From positions 1 to 50,145 of the IMG/VR virus record IMGVR_UViG_3300029258_001349: 50,145 nt of DNA; one strand, given 5' to 3'. The notes under the pieces are model-generated. The model saw only the letters and a list, made by a program, of their open reading frames with translations. It ran no database searches and was not told the DNA's origin. The position numbers and the translations under genes were made by a program. Positions 2,590-49,487 of the stretch are shown here, one piece after another (position 1 is the first letter of the stretch; every line of letters starts with the position of its first letter). This stretch comes from a virus.

Positions 2590-3478
2590 TTGGGCTTTTG
2601 ATATAACTGTACAGTTTCGCGTTAAGGAATCAGCAGGTGTTATTAAAATTAAACAATGTCCTTATTGTGGTAATGATAGGTCAAATCTAGAAATATCTAT
2701 ACCTAAGTGTGTCTTTCATTGCTGGGCTTGTGACGCTGGCGGATCTGTTAAAAAATTTTTAAGGGATCAAGAAATTCCCTTTGATGTTGCCGATATTAGG
2801 CCCGAAGCACCAGTAAAAAGAAAAGAAGATAGTATTTTTTTCTTACCTGATAACATGCCTTTATTACAACAACATTCTAGATACGCGATAGCTGCAGTTA
2901 ACTATTTGAAGAGTAGGGGAATGACTGAAGAGGATATTAAAGAGTGGGATATAAGGTTTGCTACCGGTAAAGACGCAGAAGCTTTAGATTATAATTATTT
3001 AGGTTACGTGCTTTTTCCTTTTTATGGTCTAAAAGGTCTTGAATACTTTCAAGCAGCTAGTTATGTAAACAAGGGATATAAATTACCCGCAACGACTAAA
3101 GATAAATTCTTACCTAAGCAGCGCGGATCTCATACTCTGGTTTTTGTCGAAGGTATTTTCGATGCTACCACTATATGGAAATATACCACTCATGATATAT
3201 TCATGATTTTTGGTAAATATTTAGGACCTTATCAGTTAGATATGCTTACTAAAGCTAATTATACTGAGGTTATAATGTGTTTAGACGGTGATGCTTATAA
3301 AGACGCAATTACTCTTGCGAACTTACTGTATTCTCGAGGTATTCGCGTTAAAATAGCTAAATTACCTGAGGATAAGGATCCAAATGATCTAAAAGAACAG
3401 GTTGTTGAGTATATTAATAGGGCATACGACGTTACTGAAAGCTATTTAAGGAGAGAACGTGCAAGGTCGCATAGATAA
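2579..3478 (+). CDS. dnaG: DNA primase, DnaG-type (zinc finger + Toprim)
   Basis: This enzyme makes RNA primers for lagging-strand synthesis. A CHC2-like zinc finger lies at the N terminus (C27-x2-C30, then H47/C48-x2-C51). A Toprim domain follows with FVEGIFDA near 190 and the acidic pair LDGDA near 236-239. I chose the ATG at 2579, which overlaps the helicase stop, over an in-frame ATG at 2546 that would add 11 residues from within dnaB. The C terminus is short, as in T4 gp61 or T7-type primases. It overlaps the next gene by 20 bases. Gene order helicase-primase-UvsW-like is consistent with one replication operon. Confidence 0.88.
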   Translation: MIPNWAFDITVQFRVKESAGVIKIKQCPYCGNDRSNLEISIPKCVFHCWACDAGGSVKKFLRDQEIPFDVADIRPEAPVKRKEDSIFFLPDNMPLLQQHSRYAIAAVNYLKSRGMTEEDIKEWDIRFATGKDAEALDYNYLGYVLFPFYGLKGLEYFQAASYVNKGYKLPATTKDKFLPKQRGSHTLVFVEGIFDATTIWKYTTHDIFMIFGKYLGPYQLDMLTKANYTEVIMCLDGDAYKDAITLANLLYSRGIRVKIAKLPEDKDPNDLKEQVVEYINRAYDVTESYLRRERARSHR

Positions 3479-6116
3479 AGGAAGTGTTTGGCTAGAAAAT
3501 TATACGCAATCTGAGATCGCCCGATTATCTGAGATTTTATCTTTTGATATACCAGGTAGAGAACATATGCCTTTATATAAACAGGGTAAATGGGATGGCA
3601 TCAAAAGATTTCTTGATTGGCGGTTAAAGAAGTTTTCCGTAGGATTATTATCTTACGTAGAAGAGAAGTTAAATCATAAAATAGAGATTCTATCTGATGA
3701 GCGCGTATTTTTAGATTTACCCTACGTACCTGTTAAGATTGATGGTAAATATGATTTTAGAGATTATCAAGAAATATCTATAAAGAAATTGTTAAAGAAT
3801 AATGGCGGTGCAGTCGAGTTAGCAACTAATGCAGGAAAGACGGCAGGTATAGCTTCTGTCGCAGCTTCTTTTGCTAAAATAGGAAAGACAACTGTTATTT
3901 TAGAACGCACGGTTAATTTATTAACTCAAGTAAAAGCCGCAGTTGAATCATGTTTGGGATATTCAATAGGGCAGATAACACGAAAGAAAAAAGAATATAA
4001 TTATGATTGTATAATTATTATGGTTCCACTTGTTACACGTATACTGGATAGAGTCGCTAAAGATGAGGGTTCTGACGAGGATTATGAGATATTTGATATA
4101 CTTTCTAATACTGACGCTTTTCTCGTTGATGAATGTGTTGCAGGGAGCTCACTTATCCAAACAGAAAAAGGTACTATACAGATAAAAGATGTGCCTGCTA
4201 TTAAACCTTTATTTATATTATCTTATGATGGTTATCAGTCAACATACAAGCGTATAAGACGTTTTTGGTCTAAAGGCTTAAAAGAGACTTTACAAGTTAC
4301 ATTTTCATCAGGAGAAAAACTTGTATGTACGCCAGAACATTTGATTTATACAGAGGAGCACGGATGGGTAGAAGCGGGCAAGTTACAAAAGAATCAGACA
4401 TGCTTTACTGGGAAAAGAAGTTTCAAGAGTATAATGGGTCAGTCAAAAAATGCGCTTGTGGTTGTGGTAAGGAAATACCTCGTAAACAGTATATGTCTGC
4501 CGAAAATTTTAAAAGATATTATACTGCTAAAGCAGATTCCCAGAAATATATCAATAAGCATGATAAAAGACCTAAAAATTGGGCTCTTATTCTTACACCT
4601 AGGGAAGAACACTGTATTCTCGGTACATGCCTTGGCGACGGCCTTTTACGTATACCTAATCCAACCTCTAAGAATCCACATCTTTGCTGGAGTCATAGTA
4701 CCGCACAATTATCTTGGGGTAGATATAAAAAAGACGTACTTTCTAGATTACTTATTCATGAGTACGGCGCGCCAAATCAAGGTTATACAAAAGGGCGCAC
4801 GTATATTCATACGTTTAGGACACGCTGTTTACCGGCACTTAAACCTTTATATGACAAAATGTATAAAAACAATAAAAAACAGGTTACACTGTCTTGGCTT
4901 AAAAATCTTAAAGACGAAAGTTTTGCTTGGTGGTTTTGTGACGACGGATCTTATGATAAAAAAGGAAAGATTATTCACTTACATACAGAGGGTCTTACGC
5001 TGGAAGAAAATATATTATGTAAAGAATTTCTTTCTAAAGTTTTCGGACGCGTTTCACTGGTTACAGCGAAAAATAATCAAAATCGTATATATACACATAT
5101 TAGATTTCTACGTAGCTCAACTGACATGTTTTTTGACAAAATTTTACCCTTTGTACCAAAAGACATGTACTACAAAAGTCCTAGACATTCAGAAGTATAA
5201 ATCTGTGGATGTTTATGATTTAGAAGTAGAGGATACGCATTGTTTTTTTGCTAATAATATTTTAGTACATAATTGCCATCACGCACAAGCCGCATCGGAT
5301 CAAGCTATTTTAAATATGAATAGACAAGCTTTACGCTTTGGTTTTTCTGGCAGTTTACCTAAACCTGGTACAATAGCGGATTTGAATATGAGAGAAATAT
5401 TAGGAGAAACTCTGCATAAAGTATCAAATAAAGAATTAATTGATAGAGGTATCAGCGCAAAACCTACAATACACTTTATTGCTTATGAGACATCTTTAGG
5501 CAGTAAATTAGATGCATACAAACAGGCTATTCGAAATGATTGTTTTAAAATGCAATTTCAGGGCTATGATCATACAGGTAAAGAAATATTGAAAAATGTC
5601 TTTAGCGTACCTACTTATACGAATAAGGTAAAAGAATTTGTGATGAATTATGCTATAAAACATAATCCTGCCTTTACTTCTATAATTAAGCTCTTAGTAG
5701 ATGTACATGTAGCAGTAGATCAGTCTACCGTAATTATAGTAGACTGGAAAGCTTTTGGAGCAGACTTAGCAGAAACTATAGATGCACCTTTACTATACAG
5801 TAAAACGAAAAACAGAGAAGAACTTATAGAAGATTTTTCTTCAGGAAAAATAAAGAAATTAGTAACGACTAGTATTTTAGATGAAGGTATGTCTATTAAT
5901 AGAATTAAAGTATTAATCTTAGCTACAGCAGGTTCTTCTAGACGACAATTTTTACAACGTGTTGGTCGCGCCTTACGTGTTAAAAAAGATGGTGATAATA
6001 CAGCAATTATTTATGATTTCTGGCGTTTAGGTCATAAGTATTTATTAGAACCAAGTAAGAAAAGACTAGCTTTATGGAAAGAAGAAGGCTTTGATGTGGA
6101 GATGAAAACAGTTTAG
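3459..6116 (+). CDS. uvsW: UvsW-like SF2 DNA helicase interrupted by an intein
   Basis: The GTG start has a strong Shine-Dalgarno (AAGGAGAG). The 885-residue precursor holds a helicase of about 505 residues split by a 380-residue intein (residues 226-605). The helicase has an N-terminal UvsW-type domain, motif I ATNAGKT (122-128), and motif VI QRVGRALR near 833. The DEAD/H motif II is split exactly: VDE ends the N-extein and CHH begins the C-extein, so splicing restores VDECHH. UvsW-family helicases reverse forks and unwind branched or R-loop structures. Without splicing the ATPase cannot function. Confidence is high for the helicase and for the intein borders. The exact substrate is inferred from the T4 homologue. 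Confidence 0.9.
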   Translation: MQGRIDKGSVWLENYTQSEIARLSEILSFDIPGREHMPLYKQGKWDGIKRFLDWRLKKFSVGLLSYVEEKLNHKIEILSDERVFLDLPYVPVKIDGKYDFRDYQEISIKKLLKNNGGAVELATNAGKTAGIASVAASFAKIGKTTVILERTVNLLTQVKAAVESCLGYSIGQITRKKKEYNYDCIIIMVPLVTRILDRVAKDEGSDEDYEIFDILSNTDAFLVDECVAGSSLIQTEKGTIQIKDVPAIKPLFILSYDGYQSTYKRIRRFWSKGLKETLQVTFSSGEKLVCTPEHLIYTEEHGWVEAGKLQKNQTCFTGKRSFKSIMGQSKNALVVVVRKYLVNSICLPKILKDIILLKQIPRNISISMIKDLKIGLLFLHLGKNTVFSVHALATAFYVYLIQPLRIHIFAGVIVPHNYLGVDIKKTYFLDYLFMSTARQIKVIQKGARIFIRLGHAVYRHLNLYMTKCIKTIKNRLHCLGLKILKTKVLLGGFVTTDLMIKKERLFTYIQRVLRWKKIYYVKNFFLKFSDAFHWLQRKIIKIVYIHILDFYVAQLTCFLTKFYPLYQKTCTTKVLDIQKYKSVDVYDLEVEDTHCFFANNILVHNCHHAQAASDQAILNMNRQALRFGFSGSLPKPGTIADLNMREILGETLHKVSNKELIDRGISAKPTIHFIAYETSLGSKLDAYKQAIRNDCFKMQFQGYDHTGKEILKNVFSVPTYTNKVKEFVMNYAIKHNPAFTSIIKLLVDVHVAVDQSTVIIVDWKAFGADLAETIDAPLLYSKTKNREELIEDFSSGKIKKLVTTSILDEGMSINRIKVLILATAGSSRRQFLQRVGRALRVKKDGDNTAIIYDFWRLGHKYLLEPSKKRLALWKEEGFDVEMKTV
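4134..5273 (+). mobile_element. intein in helicase motif II
   Basis: The borders are set by Cys1 (codon 4134-4136), a block B with T-P-E-H near 4330-4341, a block F-like VYDLEVEDTH and the C-terminal VHN followed by Cys+1 (5274). The splicing halves are about 90 residues at the start and 35 residues at the end, both in the helicase frame. The middle, about 4395-5170, reads in that frame as a stop-free but featureless hydrophobic and basic stretch. In another frame the same bases encode a LAGLIDADG endonuclease. Inteins normally carry the endonuclease in the same frame, so this arrangement is unusual. The insertion site, a nearly invariant ATPase motif, is typical of inteins. Confidence 0.92.
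4364..5200 (+). CDS. LAGLIDADG homing endonuclease nested out of frame inside the intein
   Basis: This gene lies wholly inside the helicase intein but in a different frame. The ATG at 4364 has AGAGGAG at 4352-4358, five bases upstream, a better site than the in-frame ATGs at 4325 and 4400. The 278-residue product has a small zinc-type motif KCACGCGKEIP near residue 30. It has a first LAGLIDADG helix LGTCLGDG (catalytic Asp near 92) and a second WWFCDDGS (Asp near 193-194), as in LAGLIDADG_2-type enzymes. These make a double-strand break at the empty insertion site to copy the element. Two acidic helices and intact spacing suggest activity. Independent translation from an internal start is inferred. 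Confidence 0.85.
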   Translation: MGRSGQVTKESDMLYWEKKFQEYNGSVKKCACGCGKEIPRKQYMSAENFKRYYTAKADSQKYINKHDKRPKNWALILTPREEHCILGTCLGDGLLRIPNPTSKNPHLCWSHSTAQLSWGRYKKDVLSRLLIHEYGAPNQGYTKGRTYIHTFRTRCLPALKPLYDKMYKNNKKQVTLSWLKNLKDESFAWWFCDDGSYDKKGKIIHLHTEGLTLEENILCKEFLSKVFGRVSLVTAKNNQNRIYTHIRFLRSSTDMFFDKILPFVPKDMYYKSPRHSEV

Positions 6117-12006: not shown

Positions 12007-15000
12007 ATGGCTATAAGAAGAAAAGCAAAAGACGATAATTTTTTACCTAAGAAAAAGAAACCGAAAATAAAAGGTTGTCCTGATTGTAGAAATTTTCCTT
12101 TTAAACAGAATAAGCAGTTACAGAAAGATTATTATTGTCCTGCGCCTAATGCTAAAGGAACACTTGCTTTTATTCTTTCACCTATGGATTTCAATAATTT
12201 AAAAGTAAATAATTGGATGTATATTATGCAGTCCTATTTATCGGATTTTAACTTATTATTTATACCTTTTCCTTACTGTTATGCTCATGCATTTGATGCA
12301 AAGAAAACATCAATAACTATATTACGTATATGTAAACATAAGATTATAGATACGTGTATAGATCTTTTTAATGTAGATTTATTAGTAGTATTTCCGGAAA
12401 CTAAGGATCTTTTATCTATTGATAACCCTACCAAGAAAGGTACTATTGATTGGCCGGGCAATTGGGGTGAATATAATGGTTTACGTACATATTATGCGAA
12501 AAAACTTTATTCAATTACAACTAAAGGTATTTGTGGTGCACATGTAGAGCATACGGCTAACAAAATTAAAAAGTATTTTAATAAAGAATTAATTTGGCAG
12601 CAAAGTCCTGATTTTCGCAGGGTATTAACGCTAGAAGATTTAGAAAATACTAAGAAGTTAATAGCTGATTTACCTTTAGTGACTATTGATGTTGAAACGA
12701 GTGGTTTAGATGTGCTAGCACCAGATTTTCGATTAAAGACAGTAAGTATTTCCTGGTTGACAACTACAGTGTGTATAGGCTATGATGTCGAGGAATGCGT
12801 AGATATAAAATATAAAGAGGCTGTTAAAACTTTTTTTATTGAATTGTCTTCGCGTAAAACCATATGTAAAACAGCCCATAATCTTAAATACGAAATGAGT
12901 GTATTTTACGTAGTCTTTGGTATGCGCGACTTCACTAATTGGGAAGATACCATGTTTTTATCTAATTTATTTGATGAAAACAAGCAATCTAATTCTCTGA
13001 AGTTTTTAGCTGGTGAATATTGTGATGGTTATGATAAATTAGTAGATGATTTTGAGAGTGCTACTTATGAAGAATTATTCTTTTATAATTGCTTAGATGG
13101 CGTATTTACTTATCAGTTAAAAGAAGGACCTTTAAATTGGTCTAAGCAACCACCTGAACTAGCTGAAAGATTAAAATATGCTTATCATAAATGTATGTTA
13201 CCGCTTTGTTACGAATTATGTTTAATAGAAATGCATGGCGTACAGATTAATTATGATTACATAAATGAATTTAATGCAAAGACTGCTAAACAACTACAAG
13301 AGATTGATGCCGATATTAAGGATAAGTTTCCCGTAACTATAGGAGCTAATTTAGGTTCGCCAAAACAATTAGCTGATATACTATTTAATAAACTTAAATA
13401 TCCTATTATAAAGAAAACTAAGACCGGTATTAGTACTGATTATGAAACTTTATTAACTTTAGCAGAAAGTCATAACTGTGATTTGGCTACTTTATTAGTT
13501 ACGCGAAAGAAATTAGCCAAGATGCGCTCTACTTATGTTACACCTTATATAGAAAAACGTTCTGAATATCGAAATGATATGGTTAGAACTAATTATGGTC
13601 AAACGCGCAATGAAAGTGCACAATCAGGCGAAGCTAAAGGCACTAGAACCGGTAGACTCTGTGTTCATGGTGATACTATATTAAATACGAATAAGGGATC
13701 TTTTAAAATTAAAGACTTAGATTTAATTAAGTATCCTAACTGTACTATTTTAACACATAAAGGTAGACAGAGAAAGATTATAGCTAAGTATTATAAGGGC
13801 AGGGAAAAGATGTTTCGCGTTGTCCTTGATCATACTAAAAGCATATTATGCACAGTGGGTCATAAGTTTCTTACACCCGATGGCTGGAAACACTTAAGAG
13901 ATTTAAGATATAAATCTAGAATATATACATATACAAATAATAATTTATATCCTACAACTATTGAAGCTATTATTCCTAAAAATACTTGTGATGTCTGGGA
14001 TATAGAAGTAGAAGAAGATCATTCGTACTTAGCTCAAGGATTTGTTAATCACAATTCAAGTGCGCGCCCAAATCTCCAAAATATACCCAGAGATCCTACA
14101 GTAAAGAGAATATTTAGACCGAAAAAAACTAAAAATGATTCACGCGTAATGCTTCAAGCAGATTTATCTCAAGCGGAACTACGTATAGGAGCATCTTTAG
14201 CTTTTGAACAGCGTATGCTCGATATCTACGAGAACGCTGGTGATATCCACTGGGAAACAGGTAAGGCATCTTCTAAACCAGAGGATTTAGCTGCCTTAGA
14301 AACTATGGATCCAGAAAAAAAGAAGAAAGAGATAAAGTATATACGTACAAAAGCAAAGGCTATTAATTTTGGTCTTTTATATGGTGGAGGACCTGGTGTG
14401 CTACAAAGTGTAGCTAAGTTAGGTTACGGGATTGATATGAGTGAAGCAGAAGCTACTGAAGCAAGAGAAGCTTTCTTTAGAACTTATCCTAATTTAACAG
14501 TATGGCACGAGGCTGTTAAAAATTTCGTAAAAAACCACGGTTATTCTATTTCACCCTTCGGTCGTATTCGTCACTTACCTAATGTGTTTAACTATCCAGA
14601 ACACGCAGAAGAATTTCACAAGTGTTTAAGACAAGGAATTAACGCACCTGTACAAAATTCTTGTGCCGATTTTTTGTCACAGGTATGGGCTATGAGCGGA
14701 GAGGATATACGTAAATATAAACTGGATGCACCAGCCTGTTTAACTGTGCATGACTCCATTGTGTTTGATTGTCTTAATGAAGATACAGCTTATCATGTTA
14801 TACAAATTATAAATAAGACTACGGCATACTGGACTGATTTTCATAGACAAACATGGTTAAGATGTCCTATGGTTATGGATTATGAATTAGGACCTACCTG
14901 GGGTGATTTAGAAGAGTTAGATACTAATTCCTGTCTAACGGAAGATCGTAAAAAGGCTTATGCATCTCTTACAGCAGGGTTTATGCCTACAGAAGTTGCA

Positions 15001-15036
15001 AATAATATAGAAAGGAGATCTAATATAGTAGTTTAG
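12007..15036 (+). CDS. polA: DNA polymerase I (family A) with mini-intein
   Basis: The replicative polymerase precursor has 1009 residues, of which 132 are an intein. Residues 1-200 form an N-terminal domain with CPDC and a layout like a degenerate family-4 uracil glycosylase. A 3'-5' proofreading exonuclease follows (IDVETSG near 225, TAHNLKYE, YNCLDG). Then comes the polymerase domain: motif A QADLSQAELR near 717, motif B KAINFGLLYG near 783, motif C VHDSIVFD near 914. Motif C reads HDS instead of the usual HDE, a variant I believe occurs in other phage polymerases. There is no 5' nuclease domain; that job falls to the flap nuclease at 8647. The intein splits TGRL from SSARPNLQNIP, the conserved primer/template-binding motif. 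Confidence 0.95.
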   Translation: MAIRRKAKDDNFLPKKKKPKIKGCPDCRNFPFKQNKQLQKDYYCPAPNAKGTLAFILSPMDFNNLKVNNWMYIMQSYLSDFNLLFIPFPYCYAHAFDAKKTSITILRICKHKIIDTCIDLFNVDLLVVFPETKDLLSIDNPTKKGTIDWPGNWGEYNGLRTYYAKKLYSITTKGICGAHVEHTANKIKKYFNKELIWQQSPDFRRVLTLEDLENTKKLIADLPLVTIDVETSGLDVLAPDFRLKTVSISWLTTTVCIGYDVEECVDIKYKEAVKTFFIELSSRKTICKTAHNLKYEMSVFYVVFGMRDFTNWEDTMFLSNLFDENKQSNSLKFLAGEYCDGYDKLVDDFESATYEELFFYNCLDGVFTYQLKEGPLNWSKQPPELAERLKYAYHKCMLPLCYELCLIEMHGVQINYDYINEFNAKTAKQLQEIDADIKDKFPVTIGANLGSPKQLADILFNKLKYPIIKKTKTGISTDYETLLTLAESHNCDLATLLVTRKKLAKMRSTYVTPYIEKRSEYRNDMVRTNYGQTRNESAQSGEAKGTRTGRLCVHGDTILNTNKGSFKIKDLDLIKYPNCTILTHKGRQRKIIAKYYKGREKMFRVVLDHTKSILCTVGHKFLTPDGWKHLRDLRYKSRIYTYTNNNLYPTTIEAIIPKNTCDVWDIEVEEDHSYLAQGFVNHNSSARPNLQNIPRDPTVKRIFRPKKTKNDSRVMLQADLSQAELRIGASLAFEQRMLDIYENAGDIHWETGKASSKPEDLAALETMDPEKKKKEIKYIRTKAKAINFGLLYGGGPGVLQSVAKLGYGIDMSEAEATEAREAFFRTYPNLTVWHEAVKNFVKNHGYSISPFGRIRHLPNVFNYPEHAEEFHKCLRQGINAPVQNSCADFLSQVWAMSGEDIRKYKLDAPACLTVHDSIVFDCLNEDTAYHVIQIINKTTAYWTDFHRQTWLRCPMVMDYELGPTWGDLEELDTNSCLTEDRKKAYASLTAGFMPTEVANNIERRSNIVV
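13660..14055 (+). mobile_element. mini-intein in DNA polymerase I
   Basis: A 132-residue insertion begins at Cys1 (residue 552) and ends VNHN before Ser+1 (residue 684). Block B reads ILCTVGHKFLTPDGW (T-x2-H). Block F/G reads VWDIEVEEDHSYLAQGFVNHN. No endonuclease domain is present in any frame of this short element, so it splices but cannot home by itself. The extein joint TGRL-SSARPNLQNIP is a near-invariant family A motif. All residues needed for a class 1 splicing reaction are visible. Confidence 0.93.
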
Positions 15037-37584: not shown

Positions 37585-37725
37585 TCATGTTTAAAAAAGA
37601 CGATTTAATAGAGCAAACTAAAACATAAATTATGAAAAAGAAAGTTGATCCGTTTATTTGGGGTATAGAGGAAATTATATAAAATTATGAAAGTATTCTT
37701 ACTGCTGACGAGCAAACTAAATAAA

Positions 37726-37789
37726 CCTCTGTTGTGGCGCTTTGACATAGAAAGCGCTAACTTTCTTTCCATTATATGACTTTCAGAGG
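37726..37789 (+). ncRNA. nested hairpin in intergenic region
   Basis: CCTCTG (37726-37731) pairs with CAGAGG (37784-37789). Inside, TGGCGCTTT (37735-37743) pairs with AAAGCGCTA (37751-37759) around GACATAG, nine pairs with one G-U. There is no T tract, so it is more likely a structured leader or processing site than a terminator. Confidence 0.4.
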
Positions 37790-37812
37790 ATTCGAGCTAG
37801 AGATTAGTTAGA

Positions 37813-37827
37813 TTAATAACTTATTAA
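37813..37827. promoter_or_regulatory. palindromic operator-like site
   Basis: TTAATAA-C-TTATTAA is a perfect palindrome around a central C (extended by A/T on each side), just seven bases upstream of the promoter-like element at 37834. Position and symmetry fit a dimeric repressor or activator site. AT-richness lowers its significance. Confidence 0.35.
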
Positions 37828-37833
37828 TAATTA

Positions 37834-37848
37834 TATTTATTATATAAG
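37834..37848 (+). promoter_or_regulatory. promoter-like element TATTTATTATATAAG
   Basis: This 15-mer is identical to the one at 46112-46126 upstream of nadM. A 13/15 variant lies at 38625-38639 and a 12-base match at 597-608. It precedes the micro-gene at 37861 by 12 bases, with GGGGGTG acting as Shine-Dalgarno. Confidence 0.5.
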
Positions 37849-37860
37849 GGGGTGATCATT

Positions 37861-37986
37861 ATGGAAGTAGGCCAGAGTGCAACAATCATTAACAATTTAA
37901 TGACAGATGAAGAAAAAGAAACTATTCTTACGGAAGAGGAATTACAAGCAACAGAACAGGAACAAACCGTCTTTTTAGGATTCTAG
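37861..37986 (+). CDS. acidic micro-protein A (41 aa)
   Basis: The 41-residue peptide starts after a strong Shine-Dalgarno (AAGGGGGTG) and a promoter-like element. It is very acidic, and its middle (IINNLMTDEEKETILTEEELQATEQEQ in overlapping parts) matches the peptide at 38023 residue for residue at many positions. It ends TVFLGF. The two could be small anti-defence proteins, or leader-like precursor peptides. There is no modification enzyme nearby to support the latter. No known homologue is recognised. Confidence 0.55.
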   Translation: MEVGQSATIINNLMTDEEKETILTEEELQATEQEQTVFLGF

Positions 37987-38022
37987 TGTTTAATTATTTT
38001 ACAAGAAAGGTTAATACTAATT

Positions 38023-38163
38023 ATGGAAAAAACTGTACTAAGTTGTTGTGGAGGTGATTCTATCATTGCTAATCTTATGACTAAAGAAGAGCGCGAAGAA
38101 ACCTTTACAAAAGAAGAACTACAAGCAATAGAGAAACAAGACCAGCCAATGTTAGCAATCTAA
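38023..38163 (+). CDS. acidic micro-protein B (46 aa), paralogue of A
   Basis: The 46-residue peptide has SCCGGDS near the N terminus, then IIANLMTKEEREETFTKEELQAIEKQ, aligned without gaps to peptide A. It ends PMLAI. AAGAAAGG lies upstream. Conservation is highest in NLMT(D/K)EE and EELQA, while the ends differ, suggesting a shared fold with diverged tips. Confidence 0.55.
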   Translation: MEKTVLSCCGGDSIIANLMTKEEREETFTKEELQAIEKQDQPMLAI

Positions 38164-43262: not shown

Positions 43263-43461
43263 AGTATTAGAGTATGATGCCAATACTTTCGTTATATCGC
43301 ATAAATGGCTTAATGATAGACATTGCTGGGTAAGTTGGTCTAATATGTTCTTTCGAGGTTCTTTTGGGGAATTAGCTAGAGATGCTGCTAATGGTAGGAT
43401 AAAGCGTAGTGCTTATCCAGAATTTTTTGACGTATTAGTGATAAAGGATAGAATAGATTAA
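43237..43461 (+). CDS. hypothetical protein, 74 aa, possibly split from the preceding gene
   Basis: The ATG lies in a 13-bp direct repeat and lacks a Shine-Dalgarno. The 74 residues (YELYIVLEYDANTFVISHKW ... NGRIKRSAYPEFFDVLVI in parts) form a small beta-rich domain with many aromatics. It shares the bases encoding ELYI with the end of the previous gene in a different frame, so the two may once have been one gene. Alternatively it is a genuine separate short gene. No function known. Confidence 0.5.
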   Translation: MNYTYELYIVLEYDANTFVISHKWLNDRHCWVSWSNMFFRGSFGELARDAANGRIKRSAYPEFFDVLVIKDRID

Positions 43462-43883
43462 TGTCGGAAATAAAAGGTTTTTCAGGTAAACATGCGTATT
43501 TAAGCAATTTTTATCCCGTAAAAGTACCTTACGGCGGCATAGTATTTCCAACTGTCGAAAATGCTTATCAAGCAGCTAAAACAGAAAAACAGGAAGAGAG
43601 AATATTATTTCAATCTATGACACCAGGTCAAGCAAAGAGAGCAGGTAAAAAATTAGTTTTAGATATTGAAGATTGGCTTTTACGCAGAGATATGATAATG
43701 GAACACTTAATTCGCTATAAATTTTCCGTAAATATTCCTTTACTTATTGCTTTAAAAAGTACAGGTAAAGCCTACATTGAAGAAACAAATAATTGGGGAG
43801 ATACATATTGGGGTGTTTGCAACAGCATAGGTAAAAATAAACTAGGTCGCATACTTATGAAGATAAGAGATGAATTGTTATGA
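43461..43883 (+). CDS. NADAR domain protein (YbiA-like N-glycosidase)
   Basis: The 140-residue protein fits the NADAR family throughout: FSGKHAYLSNFYPVKVPYGG, FPTVENAYQAAKT, MTPGQAKRAGKKL, NNWGDTYWGV and LGRILMKIRDEL. NADAR proteins are N-glycosidases; some remove ADP-ribose from guanine in DNA and oppose DarT toxins, and others act in riboflavin intermediate clean-up. The flanking NAD-dependent ligase, NadM and NadV make an NAD/ADP-ribose role likely here. Overlaps the preceding gene by one base. Confidence 0.88.
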   Translation: MSEIKGFSGKHAYLSNFYPVKVPYGGIVFPTVENAYQAAKTEKQEERILFQSMTPGQAKRAGKKLVLDIEDWLLRRDMIMEHLIRYKFSVNIPLLIALKSTGKAYIEETNNWGDTYWGVCNSIGKNKLGRILMKIRDELL

Positions 43884-44023
43884 CAATTAAAGAATTCTTA
43901 GTATTTCTAAAACACAGACTGGGTTTTCATACAAAAGATTGTCCTATACCCTGTTTAAATAAAGAAGAAAAATACTACACGTGTAAATATACCTATATGA
44001 ATTTTAAAAAGAATGACAAATAA
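43880..44023 (+). CDS. small cysteine-containing protein, 47 aa
   Basis: A 47-residue ORF is coupled to NADAR by ATGA and overlaps terL by 11 bases. It has CPIPC and one further Cys and is basic. Small genes directly before terL can encode small terminase subunits, but at 47 residues this is too short for a typical one. Function unknown. Confidence 0.45.
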   Translation: MTIKEFLVFLKHRLGFHTKDCPIPCLNKEEKYYTCKYTYMNFKKNDK

Positions 44024-46085
44024 ACAACAAGAAGCATTAGCAGCGTTAATAGCATCAGGTAGAACAACAAAAAAAGAATTAGAACAATTCTCTGAGCAAG
44101 AGCTTACTGTTATAGCTCAATCAACCCTCGAATATCTAGATAAAGGTGAATCCCTAACTATGAAAGATATCGAGTTGGGTGATTATTTATTCGAAATGCC
44201 TGACATAGTCCAATTCATTGAAGATCCTTATTACTTAGGTAATGAACTCGGTTATCCTCGTAATGAAAGTGGCTCTATTATAAAAGGAAAACCTAGACAA
44301 ATCTACACGTACTGGTTAGAACAATTAGAGAAGATATATACACCAGGGGAAATGTACACAGAAGTTCTTATTACAGGTGCTATAGGCGGTGGTAAAAGTA
44401 CTGGAGCAAATGTTATACAAGCGTACGATCTATTACATCTGTTAGCACTTAAAAATCCACAAAAGCATTATGGCTTAATGCCTTCAACCACTATCGTACT
44501 AGCCTTTTTTAGCATTCTAAAAGAGTTATCAACTGATGTGGGTTACGCTCAGTTTCAGGGTATGTTAGATAGTAGCCCCTGCTTTAATTCTCTCTTACAT
44601 AGGAATAAGCGTTTATCTGAAGGCTTTCAGATGATACCACCTAAAGATAAAAATATAAAGTTTGTATTAGGTTCACGTGCAACGCATACTTTGGGCAAAG
44701 CAGTATTTAGTGCTGTACTTGATGAAGCTAACTTTGGGCAAAGCACTACAGATAAGAATGCTGATGAAAAAACAAGTCAAGTATATGATAATTATACTAA
44801 TCTGCTTAGGCGTAAGAAATCCAGATTCTTACACGCACCTGGTCACTTTTGTATTATATCATCTAAAAAAGGCGAAGCAGATTTTCTTGAACAACATATT
44901 GAAAAATCTAAAGGCCAAAAAGGTGTTTATGTAATAGATGCTCCTATTTATGAATTTAAAAAATGCAGAGGAGAATATTCTAAAAAAACTTTTCGTGTAT
45001 TATTAGGTGACCTAACGCGTAATCCGCGTGTACTTAAAGACGACGAAAAAGTTCCATCTAATTTACGTGATAAAGTTAGAAAAGTACCTGTTAATTTAAA
45101 GAAAGATTTTGATACTAATATAATAGAAGCTTTGCGTGATCTAGCAGGCATTGCTGCTCAACCTAAAAGCGCTTTCTTTTCTAATAGAGATCAATTACGT
45201 GCATTATTTGATAAGAGCAGAAAATCTCCTTGGAAATATTCAGCGTCCAGCAAAATTCCTAATACAGTAAATATCAGTTTTCGCGGAACAGATCAAATAA
45301 GTGATTTTTTAATAAAAGAAAGGCTCTTTTGTAATAAAGGTAAATTGCCCTTTGCGGACAAGCCTAGATTTTTAGCCGTTGATACTGGAGTTACTGGCGA
45401 TGCTTGTGGTATATCAATGGTTTGTAAATGCGGCGTTAGAGTATTAAAAACGGATAAAAAATCCTATTTTGTACCTAAGTACTACGCTGATTTTTATATA
45501 CGCTTAAAAGGCAAAAATAAAGATCCTTTTCCTTTATATAAAATTACAGAATTTGTTAAATATTTACGTAATGGTTTAAGTATAAACATTAAGGGTGTAA
45601 GTACTGATGGCTATCAATCTACAGAAATGAGACAAAATATATCTATAGCTTTTCCTTCAATGATTGTAGAGCTACTATCCGTAGATGCAGATGATATTGC
45701 CTATTTGAGTCTAAGAAATAATGTTACTGATGGTACTCTTACGGGACTATATCCAGATAAGAATTTATTAGTAGAAGCTTTGGATTTACAGCATATAGTA
45801 ACAGGACAACGAGGAACAAAAGGTTCCTTAATAAAAATGAAAGTAGATCATCCTAGAATAGCTTCTGATGGTTTCGTAGGGAGAAAAGATGTTATCGATT
45901 CTTTAACTTCTGCCTTATACTCCTGTAAGGTACACGATACAGCAGCATCTATAGAAGAAATTCAAGAACAAGTAAAAGAAATAAAGAATATTGATATAGA
46001 TAGTGTAATTGCTGAAGCTGATAAATCTGTAGAAGATGCTTTAAAGAAAGTTGACGACATAAATTTAGACAATCTTTTGGAATAA
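44013..46085 (+). CDS. terL: terminase large subunit (TerL)
   Basis: TerL is the ATPase-nuclease that packages DNA into the prohead. The 690-residue protein has Walker A TGAIGGGKST (121-130), Walker B AVLDEANF near 234-241 and a coupling motif after it. An RNase H-like nuclease begins FLAVDTGVTGDACG near 453-466. It is longer than many TerL proteins because of its N-terminal 100 residues and an acidic C-terminal tail of about 50. No small subunit is evident nearby. Head and tail genes must lie outside the window. Confidence 0.92.
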   Translation: MTNKQQEALAALIASGRTTKKELEQFSEQELTVIAQSTLEYLDKGESLTMKDIELGDYLFEMPDIVQFIEDPYYLGNELGYPRNESGSIIKGKPRQIYTYWLEQLEKIYTPGEMYTEVLITGAIGGGKSTGANVIQAYDLLHLLALKNPQKHYGLMPSTTIVLAFFSILKELSTDVGYAQFQGMLDSSPCFNSLLHRNKRLSEGFQMIPPKDKNIKFVLGSRATHTLGKAVFSAVLDEANFGQSTTDKNADEKTSQVYDNYTNLLRRKKSRFLHAPGHFCIISSKKGEADFLEQHIEKSKGQKGVYVIDAPIYEFKKCRGEYSKKTFRVLLGDLTRNPRVLKDDEKVPSNLRDKVRKVPVNLKKDFDTNIIEALRDLAGIAAQPKSAFFSNRDQLRALFDKSRKSPWKYSASSKIPNTVNISFRGTDQISDFLIKERLFCNKGKLPFADKPRFLAVDTGVTGDACGISMVCKCGVRVLKTDKKSYFVPKYYADFYIRLKGKNKDPFPLYKITEFVKYLRNGLSINIKGVSTDGYQSTEMRQNISIAFPSMIVELLSVDADDIAYLSLRNNVTDGTLTGLYPDKNLLVEALDLQHIVTGQRGTKGSLIKMKVDHPRIASDGFVGRKDVIDSLTSALYSCKVHDTAASIEEIQEQVKEIKNIDIDSVIAEADKSVEDALKKVDDINLDNLLE

Positions 46086-46111
46086 TGTTGTCTCCTTTCA
46101 TATATTTTATC

Positions 46112-46126
46112 TATTTATTATATAAG
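46112..46126 (+). promoter_or_regulatory. promoter-like element TATTTATTATATAAG
   Basis: Identical over 15 bases to 37834-37848. It lies after terL and 44 bases before the nadM start, followed by a hairpin in the leader. It probably starts the NAD+ transcript. Confidence 0.5.
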
Positions 46127-46142
46127 AGCGCAGGGAGCGCTC
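46126..46142 (+). promoter_or_regulatory. leader hairpin before nadM
   Basis: GAGCGC-AGGGA-GCGCTC is a perfect six-pair stem with a five-base loop, directly after the promoter-like element. There is no T tract. The loop/stem junction reads GGAGC, as in the hairpin at 47215. Confidence 0.5.
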
Positions 46143-46169
46143 ATTCTCATTTAACTACGGAGGTCGTAG

Positions 46170-47213
46170 ATGAACTATTCTATCTTTATAGGCAGATTTC
46201 AACCCTTTCACAATGGGCATCTTAACGCTTGTGAACAAGCTTTGCATCGTTCAGGTCATATCATTATTTTAGTAGGCTCAGCTTTTTCATCGAGAAATAT
46301 AAAAAACCCTTTTTCTTGGGAAGAACGCCGCAGCATGATCTCGAGTGCTCTTGACGCTAAAAAATATAACGGTCAATATACTATCTTACCTATTCGCGAT
46401 TACTTTTATAGTGATAATGCTTGGGTAGCTAATATACAGAAAAAAGTAGAAACTATTATAGGCCCTACAGATAAAGTTTTTCTATGTGGCAGAGATAAAG
46501 ATGCTACGACTTATTACCTTAATTTATTTCCTCAATGGGATTTTATGCCTATTATGGTAGATTTTCCTGTAGATGCTACAGGTGTCCGACGCGCATATTT
46601 TTCAGAGAAACTTGCGGGCGATTTTAAATCTACTTTTAAGGAAGATAGATTAGCACCTATCAACGTACCAAAGAGTACCTTACAGTTTCTCAAAAAATTT
46701 AGTAAGACTAAGGAGTACATTAGAATGCGAGAGGAGGCTTCCTTTATTAAAAAGTATAAAGAAGACTGGTCATCTGCGCCCTATGCTCCTGTCTTTGTTA
46801 CTACAGATGCTGTAGTAGTATGCGGTGGTCATGTATTATTAGTTAGGCGTAGAGATAATCCCGGAAAAGGTTTATATGCTCTACCCGGCGGTTTTATTCA
46901 ACCAGATGAACCTTTAGAAAAAGGTTGCTTACGTGAACTAAAAGAAGAAACGCGAATTAACGTACCGAAAGCAGTGTTAACTGGTTGTATCAAAGCAAAA
47001 CGCGTCTTTGATCATCCGTTTAGATCTTTGCGTGGAAGAACCATTACACATGCTTTTTATATAGAATTAAATGAAAAGAAACTACCAAAAGTAAAAGGTG
47101 AAGATGACGCTGATAAAGCTTTTTGGTTACCTCTAAATGAAGTTATTAATAATATGAATAAGTTTTATGAAGATCACTTTCAAATAATAGAAAGTTTTAT
47201 AGGAAAAATTTAA
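46170..47213 (+). CDS. nadM: bifunctional NMN adenylyltransferase / Nudix hydrolase (NadM-Nudix)
   Basis: The 347-residue enzyme joins NMN and ATP to NAD+. IFIGRFQPFHNGH carries the H-x-G-H nucleotidyltransferase motif (H14, H17) and NIKNPFSWEERRSM is the ATP-binding end. A Nudix domain follows; its box at about 241-264 is G-x5-E-x7-REL-x-EE with Arg instead of the usual Gly near the end. The Nudix half of related enzymes hydrolyses ADP-ribose. TACGGAGG precedes the ATG. With NadV next door it forms a two-step NAD+ salvage. Confidence 0.93.
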   Translation: MNYSIFIGRFQPFHNGHLNACEQALHRSGHIIILVGSAFSSRNIKNPFSWEERRSMISSALDAKKYNGQYTILPIRDYFYSDNAWVANIQKKVETIIGPTDKVFLCGRDKDATTYYLNLFPQWDFMPIMVDFPVDATGVRRAYFSEKLAGDFKSTFKEDRLAPINVPKSTLQFLKKFSKTKEYIRMREEASFIKKYKEDWSSAPYAPVFVTTDAVVVCGGHVLLVRRRDNPGKGLYALPGGFIQPDEPLEKGCLRELKEETRINVPKAVLTGCIKAKRVFDHPFRSLRGRTITHAFYIELNEKKLPKVKGEDDADKAFWLPLNEVINNMNKFYEDHFQIIESFIGKI

Positions 47214-47214
47214 C

Positions 47215-47233
47215 CTACTGCATGGAGCAGTAG
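47215..47233 (+). promoter_or_regulatory. hairpin between nadM and nadV
   Basis: CTACTGC-ATGGA-GCAGTAG is a perfect seven-pair stem in the 39-bp gap, nine bases before the nadV Shine-Dalgarno AAAGGAG. The loop is ATGGA, close to AGGGA of the hairpin at 46126. It may set mRNA processing or nadV translation. Confidence 0.5.
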
Positions 47234-47252
47234 TAAGCAAAGGAGATTTGCA

Positions 47253-48620
47253 ATGAACATTTTAACACTAACAGACAGTTACAAAGTATCACACTACAGA
47301 CAATACCCGCCTAATTCAGAGCATGTGTATGCTTATTTTGAGTCAAGAGGCGGTTTATATAAGAAAACTGTAGCCGCAGGTATGCAATATTATAGAGATA
47401 AATATATAGCTAAACCTATTACAATGGCCGATATTGACGCCATGGAATCTCTAGTAATTGCGCACCTCGGTCCAGGCGCTTTTAATAGGGCAGGCTGGGA
47501 ATACATTCTAAGAGTGCATGGCGGGTATTTACCTATTGAAATAAAAGCTGTTCCCGAAGGCACAGTTCTTTCAAGTGGTAATATACTGATGAGTGTTGAG
47601 AACACCGACAAAAAAGTGCCTTGGCTAACCAATTATGTAGAGTCTCTTCTTGTTAAAGTATGGTATCCTACGACAGTAGCTAGTACTAGCTACTATATAA
47701 AACAACTTATTTTAGAAGCCTTAGAAAAGAGTGGCGACCCATCATTGATAACTTTTAAACTGCACGACTTCGGCGATAGAGGAGTAAGTTCACCGGAATC
47801 GGCAGCAATTGGTGGTGTAGGGCATCTCTTTAATTTTAGAGGAACGGATACTCTTACCTCTTTAGATATGGCTAGAACTTACTACGGCTGTGACATGGCG
47901 GGATTTTCAATACCAGCTAGCGAGCACTCTACTATAACATCATGGGGTCGTGAACACGAGGTTGACGCCTATCGGAATATGTTACACCAGTATCCCGAAG
48001 GTTCGGTAGCATGTGTTAGTGATAGCTACGATATCTATAATGCCTGTGAGAATCTATGGGGTGGTGTACTAAAAGAAGAAGTTCTTGCTAGGGATGGCGT
48101 TCTCGTTATTAGACCTGATAGTGGTGATCCACAAGAAGTACTACCAAAAATGCTAGATATTCTTGGTGATAAATTCGGCTATACACCAAATAGAAAAGGC
48201 TATAAAGTACTAAATGATAAAGTACGCGTGATTCAAGGCGATGGTGTTACGCCTCAATCTATACCACTTATTATGGATGCTGTGATGAATGCTGGTTGGT
48301 CTATAGATAATATAGCCTTCGGTTCTGGCGGCGGTCTCTTACAGAAGATGGATAGAGATACATTAAAATTCGCTTTTAAGTGCTCGAGTATAATCATTGA
48401 TGGTGAACCGAGAGATGTTTTTAAACAACCAATTACAGCTGCGTGGAAAAGTTCAAAGGCTGGTAGGTTAAAACTTACTCAGGATAAGGGTATCTATAAA
48501 ACAGTTAGAGAGGAAGAGGGTGGTACTAATCTGTTGCGGACAATTTATCGTAACGGAGAAGCTTTTAATACAGATAATTTAGATACGATTCGACAAAGAA
48601 CTGAGAGTAAAGTATATTAA
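47253..48620 (+). CDS. nadV: nicotinamide phosphoribosyltransferase (NadV/NAMPT)
   Basis: The 455-residue enzyme makes NMN from nicotinamide and PRPP. Family motifs are NILTLTDSYKVSHYRQYPP, HDFGDRGVSSPESAAIGG, SIPASEHSTITSWG (catalytic His near 229), RPDSGDP near 286 and FGSGGGLLQK. Length fits NAMPT (about 470-490) with a slightly short C terminus. With NadM it reproduces the phage NARP2 pathway, reported to restore NAD+ after NAD+-depleting defences. Whether that is its use here is inferred. Confidence 0.95.
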   Translation: MNILTLTDSYKVSHYRQYPPNSEHVYAYFESRGGLYKKTVAAGMQYYRDKYIAKPITMADIDAMESLVIAHLGPGAFNRAGWEYILRVHGGYLPIEIKAVPEGTVLSSGNILMSVENTDKKVPWLTNYVESLLVKVWYPTTVASTSYYIKQLILEALEKSGDPSLITFKLHDFGDRGVSSPESAAIGGVGHLFNFRGTDTLTSLDMARTYYGCDMAGFSIPASEHSTITSWGREHEVDAYRNMLHQYPEGSVACVSDSYDIYNACENLWGGVLKEEVLARDGVLVIRPDSGDPQEVLPKMLDILGDKFGYTPNRKGYKVLNDKVRVIQGDGVTPQSIPLIMDAVMNAGWSIDNIAFGSGGGLLQKMDRDTLKFAFKCSSIIIDGEPRDVFKQPITAAWKSSKAGRLKLTQDKGIYKTVREEEGGTNLLRTIYRNGEAFNTDNLDTIRQRTESKVY

Positions 48621-48632
48621 TATTATAGTTTT

Positions 48633-48787
48633 GCTATTTAGATGTGCGAAAGCATTTTATATGTTGAGTGACACTTGTAGTCATATAGCTGAGAACAGAG
48701 TCGCGAATCGATGCTCAGAACTCCCGGATGGATAGTTGTGTATTAAGTCCCCAAGGCGCATATAAAATAATACACCGTCTAAATAGC
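48633..48787 (+). ncRNA. 155-nt structured RNA candidate after nadV
   Basis: A 10-pair perfect helix encloses the element: GCTATTTAGA (48633-48642) with TCTAAATAGC (48778-48787). Inside are GTGC-GAAA-GCAT, a GAAA tetraloop hairpin (48644-48655); TATATG/CATATA (48658-48663 with 48682-48687); CTGAG/CTCAG around GAG-TCG ... CGA-TG-CTC (about 48689-48718); and the perfect GTGTATTA/TAATACAC (48738-48745 with 48768-48775). The 190-bp gap has no convincing protein gene. It does not match any RNA class I can recognise. Confidence 0.6.
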
Positions 48788-48809
48788 TTGCTCAAAATAG
48801 GTAGTGAAT

Positions 48810-49487
48810 ATGAATATTATAGATAAAATTATTAAGTGCTTAAATATGTCAGAGTCTAACGTGAATGAACACGAGGCTGCTAATGCTCTACACGCAGCTA
48901 AAAAACTCGCAGCCAAACACAATTTAGATATTGCAGAAATAGAAGCCATAAAACAGGACAAAGATTCATCAGAAATTACTTATGATATAGTAGAAGGAAA
49001 TACTAAGACCAAAAGAGCATACTCTATTTATGAAAAGCAATTATTCTTTGTCTGTGATCATCTTTTTGGTACTAAACACTATTTTTCTACTAGAACTTGT
49101 GGTCATTTAAGAGAAACACATACAGCATTTATAGGCACACCAACTGATGTAAAATTATCTTTAGCCGTATTTACAATATTAAGAAAGATGGTTGAGCGCA
49201 ATGCTCGAAAAACTTATGGCAATAAATGGACTAGCATACATCGTAGTTATTGTTTAGGTTTTGCTTATAAATTAAAAGATAGAGCCATAATGCAAGTACA
49301 AGAGCCTTCTACAAGTTATGCTTTGGTAGTACAAAATAAAGAACAACAGATAAAAGACTTTTTCGATGCTATGGGATTAGATCAAAGTAGAGCTAATGAT
49401 TCTGCTGACATAGACGACGAAGCTTTTGTTCAAGGCGCTATCAAAGCCAGAAAAGTTAATTTAAACTTTAAAGAATCATTGGTTTAG
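48810..49487 (+). CDS. DUF2786 family protein
   Basis: The 225-residue protein opens IIDKIIKCLNMSES ... NEHEAANALHAAKKLAAKHNLDIAEIE, the DUF2786 signature. The middle part (CDHLFGTKHYFSTR, IHRSYCLGFAYKLKDR) matches the longer phage members. Function unknown, though such proteins are common in phages. The GTG at 48804 is in frame, but the ATG at 48810 has a better-spaced upstream AGG. Confidence 0.8.
   Translation: MNIIDKIIKCLNMSESNVNEHEAANALHAAKKLAAKHNLDIAEIEAIKQDKDSSEITYDIVEGNTKTKRAYSIYEKQLFFVCDHLFGTKHYFSTRTCGHLRETHTAFIGTPTDVKLSLAVFTILRKMVERNARKTYGNKWTSIHRSYCLGFAYKLKDRAIMQVQEPSTSYALVVQNKEQQIKDFFDAMGLDQSRANDSADIDDEAFVQGAIKARKVNLNFKESLV

Follow-up and report, generated by a model that had tools for sequence, protein, structure and literature searches.

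Comparative evidence for a pseudoknotted RNA carried by an uncultured phage and two Alteromonas megaplasmids

A long intergenic region downstream of nadV

The window analysed here is a 50,145-nt stretch of the genome of an uncultured phage (positions 1 to 50,145 of IMG/VR record IMGVR_UViG_3300029258_001349). Close to its end, the nadV gene for a nicotinamide phosphoribosyltransferase (47253..48620, + strand; Pfam NAPRTase and NAMPT_N) is followed by a gene of the DUF2786/DUF7168 type (48804..49487, + strand, assigned with Pfam; alternative start at 48810). The gap that separates them, at 48621-48803, is 183 nt long and ranks second in length among the 73 gaps of the gene set made for this analysis, the median being 2 nt. 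The longest open reading frames on this strand of the gap (34 and 32 aa) are not convincing. Most of the gap is taken up by the element described in this work, a 155-nt RNA at 48633..48787 (+ strand), whose closing helix P1 starts 12 nt after the nadV stop codon and whose distal strand P1' is separated by 16 nt from the start of the DUF2786 gene. A first-pass annotation had proposed a structured RNA of no recognised class in an unusually long gap without convincing coding capacity, preceded by nadV and followed by a DUF2786 gene. All the claims about the gap and its neighbours held, and the proposal itself is now supported by covariation and by the absence of Rfam matches. A conserved protein frame across the region, which would have refuted it, was not found.

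Several other features of the window deserve mention. Genes for NADAR, terminase, NadM-Nudix and NadV proteins lie close together at 43461-48620, as identified with Pfam. The longest gap (37585-37851) contains another strongly folded segment at 37637-37768 (+ strand), with a 10-bp closing helix, a 9-bp hairpin and a z-score of about -3.5 to -3.9, for which no Rfam match was obtained. We rejected it as a member of the same RNA class, its pseudoknot being near chance level (103 of 10,000 shuffles as good) and a model of the three copies described below, R3, giving no match. Two adjacent short paralogous open reading frames (37862-37987 and 38024-38163) have a common LMTxEExExxxTxEELQAxE segment. 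Their sequences are reminiscent of the leaders of peptide precursors, a possibility inferred from this likeness only. The helicase-like (3459-6116) and DNA polymerase I-like (12007-15036) reading frames appear to be broken by intein-like insertions, seen as breaks in their alignment to a relative phage, and a homing-endonuclease-like reading frame is present at 4325-5200.

Folding of the lone sequence gives a modest signal. The minimum free energy of the element is -40.3 kcal/mol, with a z-score of about -2.6 (range -2.5 to -2.7), and 3% of the background windows of this genome attain -2.5. In this AT-rich window, 10-bp inverted repeats within 200 nt are ordinary when taken singly (23 observed versus 19 expected). 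One perfect 10-bp inverted repeat arose in 1.0% of dinucleotide shuffles of the gap, and two, as are present in the gap, in none of 20,000. A score that combines P1 with a pseudoknot flush with it was likewise unmatched by 20,000 shuffles, and neither the window nor a 141.8-kb relative contains a higher one. As this descriptor was made after the element had been seen, the test is post hoc; covariation provides independent proof of the fold, and the comparative evidence is decisive.

Homologs on two Alteromonas plasmids

When 7.3 Gb of plasmid sequences were searched with blastn (word size 11), a single short stretch matched (41 nt, 85%, E 3e-3); it lies between genes of plasmid pKD01 from Alteromonas macleodii. 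A covariance model built from the window sequence alone gave 67.8 bits at this site, the match covering model positions 1-155. With the pKD01 copy as the query, a third copy was identified in the A. mediterranea plasmid MRG65-300, to which the window-only model gave 50.6 bits, again over positions 1-155. Both plasmid copies lie between annotated genes, and each whole plasmid has only one. They are 79.9% identical to each other, and around this locus the plasmids resemble each other only from 9 nt before P1 to a point inside P1'.

Beyond these copies, the element appears to be very rare. In IMG/VR, only a near-identical contig matched it, and no homolog was found in annotated phages. Searches of viral contigs with three 15-nt patterns gave chance matches only, besides that near-identical contig, and so did the core pattern in viral and GTDB contigs, an exact search that would miss variants. 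A terminase scan of GTDB contigs returned nothing, and comparison of the plasmid copies with phage and E. coli records revealed no more copies. The RNA is absent from the 80 NadV neighbourhoods of IMG/VR that we searched, all but one of which are at most 60% identical. Among terminase relatives, we found one syntenic phage, IMGVR_UViG_3300032018_000001 (G001; 141.8 kb, terminase 57%), which has neither nadV nor the RNA. A run of 15 identical nucleotides in this phage and a weak nhmmer match in L100 were both discarded, as they fall within coding sequences. Finally, R3 detected no fourth copy in the window, G001, the plasmid stretches, the NadV loci or 40 more virus records. As a separate observation, G001 carries a tmRNA gene at 83199-83546 (Rfam, 89.1 bits) that ARAGORN did not report.

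The element does not correspond to any described RNA family that we could identify. No match was found at the curated (gathering) threshold when the whole window was searched with the 4,227 models of Rfam 15. A relaxed search of the element (E up to 10) returned nothing beyond a chance match of 14.8 bits to the opposite strand, and the pKD01 homolog had no match at E up to 1. In the open-access literature, neither searches on structured RNAs of mobile elements nor searches with the core letters retrieved an earlier description.

Architecture of the element

The helices are arranged in the order P1(12)-H1-a(10)-H2-H3-H4-b(7)-14 nt-a'-b'-P1', where the numbers in brackets are base pairs. The first-pass annotation had reported a perfect 10-bp closing helix, which held (48633-48642/48778-48787) and which lengthens to 12 bp through a U-G and a G-C pair, so that the strands of P1 span 48633..48644 and 48776..48787. 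It had also reported a hairpin with a GAAA tetraloop and a stem of eight perfect pairs. The former, H1 (UGC-GAAA-GCA, 48645..48654), is present in the window, but the homologs do not keep its loop. The latter is helix b, which in the window forms eight perfect pairs (48738-48745/48768-48775), seven of which are conserved in the homologs. It had missed a second perfect 10-bp helix, a (48654..48663 with 48759..48768), which combines with helix b into a pseudoknot; A48654 is common to H1 and helix a.

Between the 5' strands of a and b, invariant UUGA (48664..48667) and AUAG (48685..48688) segments flank H2 (48668..48684), a hairpin with a 5-bp stem and a 7-nt loop. They are followed by the nearly invariant core hairpin H3 (CYGAG-AACAGAGnYGCRMAUCRAYG-CUCRG, 48689..48718) and by H4 (AACUCCC...GAUAGU, 48719..48737), which is invariant in all three copies, as are UUGA and AUAG. 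Downstream of the conserved 5' strand of b (48738..48744), a bridging strand of 14 nt, A-RGUC-nnn-AAGGCG (48745..48758), is conserved and of equal length in the three copies. The resulting core, UUGA-H2-AUAG-CYGAG-AACAGAGnYGCRMAUCRAYG-CUCRG-AACUCCC...GAUAGU...b-A-RGUC-nnn-AAGGCG, is almost invariant.

The 3' part of the molecule is an unbroken strand of 29 nt, a'-b'-P1', that pairs with three separate 5' segments. The conserved 3' strand of b (48769..48775) is flush with both a' and P1', and the lengths of the segments (10, 7 and 12 nt) are equal in all copies, apart from one bulged nucleotide in P1' of MRG65-300. As the order of the strands is a-b-a'-b', helices a and b cannot both be nested, and folding that allows a single structure therefore displays only one of them: the minimum free energy structure contains helix a, and forcing helix b gives -36.5 kcal/mol. 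They can nevertheless coexist as an H-type pseudoknot, with a', b' and P1' following one another without a gap.

Covariation of the helices

To assess the fold, we used an alignment of the three copies, A9, built with MAFFT without structure information. With both pseudoknot helices included, 96.7% of its cells are paired. Of 41 pairs, 25 are changed on both sides with pairing kept, against a mean of 9.0 in shuffle controls, none of which (0/500) reached this number, and at most 3 when the partner was slid by 1-3 columns. These changes are distributed over most helices, with 8/12 pairs in P1, 5/7 inner pairs in a, 4/5 in H2, 1/5 in H3, 1/2 in the inner part of H3 and 6/7 in b. Those of H3 consist of a U-A to C-G change in the stem and a C-G to U-A change in an inner pair. 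A hand alignment, in which the outermost pairs of P1 and a are correctly placed, adds support. Both a and b covary, and the pseudoknot is thus supported. The compensatory changes that the first-pass annotation had named as a check are present in most helices of the homologs.

G-U pairs also bear on the strand. There are four, at P1-11 and H2-1 of the window and at P1-6 and b-5 of MRG65-300, which fit an RNA made from this strand, as the other strand would have A-C at these positions.

The obvious caveat is that only three sequences are available, two of which are 80% identical. Many of the changes consequently represent one event, the divergence between the window and plasmid lineages. The same fold is kept with largely different letters on two plasmids, which argues for a real RNA. 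We consider it very likely that the element represents a genuine structured RNA class, new to Rfam, although no transcript data are available. Its newness lies at the level of the RNA family, no described class being matched; a new biochemical mechanism is not shown.

Genomic context of the three copies

In all three copies, P1 starts 6-15 nt past the stop codon of a gene on the same strand. These upstream genes are nadV in the window and genes for hypothetical proteins of 61 aa in pKD01 and 55 aa in MRG65-300, and we found no relation among them. Downstream are the DUF2786 gene in the window, an unrelated short hypothetical gene 180 nt away in pKD01 and a convergent gene in MRG65-300. In the window, a promoter-like sequence (10/12 match) ends 14 nt before P1; it has no counterpart so placed in the plasmids, and we found neither a promoter-like site common to the copies nor a terminator after the element.

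Both plasmids carry Dot/Icm-like genes of conjugation-type secretion systems, though they are typed as non-mobilizable, and no phage structural genes are annotated in the parts examined. Taken with the phage nature of the window, their gene content indicates that a tailed phage and conjugative megaplasmids carry the RNA as a unit. This distribution, the rarity of the RNA and the lack of a common neighbour are supported by the data, as are the fold with its pseudoknot and the conserved core. Both plasmids also have the type IV CRISPR genes csf1-csf5.

A stand-alone RNA or an alternative

Our preferred reading is that the element is a stand-alone non-coding RNA acting in trans, to which we assign a probability of roughly 0.5 in the absence of transcript data. 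It would be transcribed together with the gene just upstream and set free from that transcript by processing, a release that is inferred only. Helices a, b and P1 would stack coaxially into a near-continuous rod of ~29 bp comprising the H-type pseudoknot. In this inferred rod, UUGA, AUAG, H3, H4 and the bridging AAGGCG would form the conserved core at one end: the 14-nt strand would cross helix a and put AAGGCG beside UUGA, thereby gathering the conserved letters. As the helix letters vary freely and those of the core do not, the core is the presumed acting site. The RNA might act in trans through it, probably by binding a host protein, and might represent accessory cargo of phages and conjugative megaplasmids. 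Trans action and protein binding are both inferences.

The first-pass annotation had listed a regulatory RNA, a riboswitch-like element, a small ribozyme and an RNA decoy as possible roles. This choice remains undecided, except that riboswitch-like control of the downstream gene has become less likely than a stand-alone RNA, because the three copies have no neighbouring gene in common, downstream or otherwise, and one of them faces a convergent gene. Against the stand-alone reading, only three sequences are known, including the closely related plasmid pair, the copies have neither a promoter-like site in common nor a terminator behind them, and there is no evidence of a partner protein. The failure of the core pattern to reveal further copies also fits uneasily with an important general function, with the reservation that the search was exact.

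What the RNA might do is a matter of conjecture. Genes of the kind found upstream can rebuild NAD+ against NAD-depleting defences, and NARP systems have been mentioned in this respect (PMC11984713). By analogy, the NADAR, NadM-Nudix and NadV genes possibly make up an NARP2-like NAD+ salvage set of the type used against such defences. With these neighbours, a counter-defence role of the RNA is a reasonable guess, inferred and untested. It is tempting to speculate further that small pseudoknotted RNAs of this class serve phages and conjugative megaplasmids as counter-defence factors or as an unknown type of ribozyme with the core as the active site, a bolder reading that we consider rather less likely than not.

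The strongest rival explanation, and a possible one, is a self-cleaving or otherwise catalytic ribozyme. Its active site would be the core, and cleavage in or beside it, which is inferred, would part the upstream transcript from the rest. Known self-cleaving ribozymes do occur in phages. Small ribozymes typically have such a compact fold, with a pseudoknot and a conserved core amid helices that vary freely, and the intergenic location 6-15 nt past a stop codon would suit such an element. However, none of the ribozyme models of Rfam matches, even when E values up to 10 are allowed, comparison by eye with the hammerhead and twister cores failed, no conserved cleavage site could be identified, and the P1 helix would keep the two halves joined after cleavage.

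A cis-acting switch, i.e. a riboswitch or leader in the 5' untranslated region of the downstream gene (here that of DUF2786), is unlikely. According to this hypothesis, re-pairing of the 5' arm of P1 near the ribosome-binding site would toggle translation. The short distance between P1' and the DUF2786 start in the window is in its favour, as is the possibility for the P1 5' arm to pair with 48792-48800, beside a putative SD sequence. Nevertheless, the next annotated gene is convergent in MRG65-300, and in pKD01 it is both distant and unrelated, so that the conserved downstream gene of one pathway expected for a riboswitch is missing, albeit from three copies only. The apparent competition between a and b need not denote a switch either, because the two helices are compatible in the pseudoknot and both covary.

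We also regard it as unlikely that the element belongs to the 3' UTR of the upstream gene, where it would block exonucleases or fix the end of the mRNA. All three copies do follow a same-strand stop codon closely, and pseudoknots with a long closing helix can halt exonucleases. However, the genes upstream have no relation to one another (nadV and two different short reading frames), and the large conserved core exceeds the needs of a roadblock.

An element acting at the DNA level, such as an attachment site, an origin or a MITE-like inverted repeat, is even harder to defend. It would account for the long perfect inverted repeats and for the restriction of plasmid-plasmid similarity at the locus to the element, but the a/b pseudoknot and the one-strand G-U pairs are meaningless for a DNA cruciform, each plasmid has a single copy, and no target-site duplication is apparent by eye. 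Lastly, a short protein-coding gene can be all but excluded: a frame that overlaps the core (IAENRxAxxxSELP) is open in the window and both plasmids, but this frame of roughly 26 codons has a TTG start in the plasmids and differing ends, substitutions affect all codon positions, one in the H3 stem being compensatory, and the best covarying parts, namely P1, the greater part of a and a large part of b, lie outside it.

The reading as a stand-alone RNA thus remains the one we favour. Carriage by a phage and by megaplasmids without common neighbours indicates that the element behaves as a portable RNA gene. First noticed in the reading of a single sequence and then confirmed through homologs on unrelated elements, it represents an RNA family absent from Rfam, and compensatory changes already back its fold, pseudoknot included. 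As Alteromonas carriers are culturable marine bacteria, its expression, structure and partners are directly testable.

Comparison with known RNAs

Some resemblances were dropped after comparison by eye, namely those to twister, hammerhead, RNase P and group I RNAs. In the case of RNase P, the likeness is topological only. Bacterial RNase P has the helix order P1[P2...P4...P2' P4']P1', which the order P1[a...b...a' b']P1' of our element parallels. In contrast, the element is only 155 nt long, lacks the CR-I/CR-V signature and has no Rfam match at any threshold used, and helix b, the counterpart of P4, is made of different letters in the window and in the plasmids. Similarly, the 5-bp stem and 7-nt loop of H2 are those of an anticodon arm, but the loop is not conserved, no T arm is seen, and neither ARAGORN nor Rfam identifies the element as a tRNA or tmRNA. 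As for retrons, none of the neighbours scanned with Pfam in the window, and none of the nearby annotated genes in the plasmids, is a reverse transcriptase gene.

With H-type pseudoknot riboswitches and small ribozymes such as c-di-GMP-II, HDV-like, twister and pistol RNAs, the element has in common a compact pseudoknot and a conserved core. It differs from them in its core letters and in having no constant downstream gene, and none of the 4,227 models of Rfam matches it, even at relaxed thresholds. Further parallels are offered by GOLLD, ROOL, OLE and other RNAs of phages and bacteria with an unknown or accessory function, which are structured, were recognised by covariation, lie in some cases on mobile elements and long had no known function (PMC12286853, PMC2864571). 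The element described here is likewise supported by covariation and resides on mobile elements, but it is far smaller, very rare and matched by no Rfam family.
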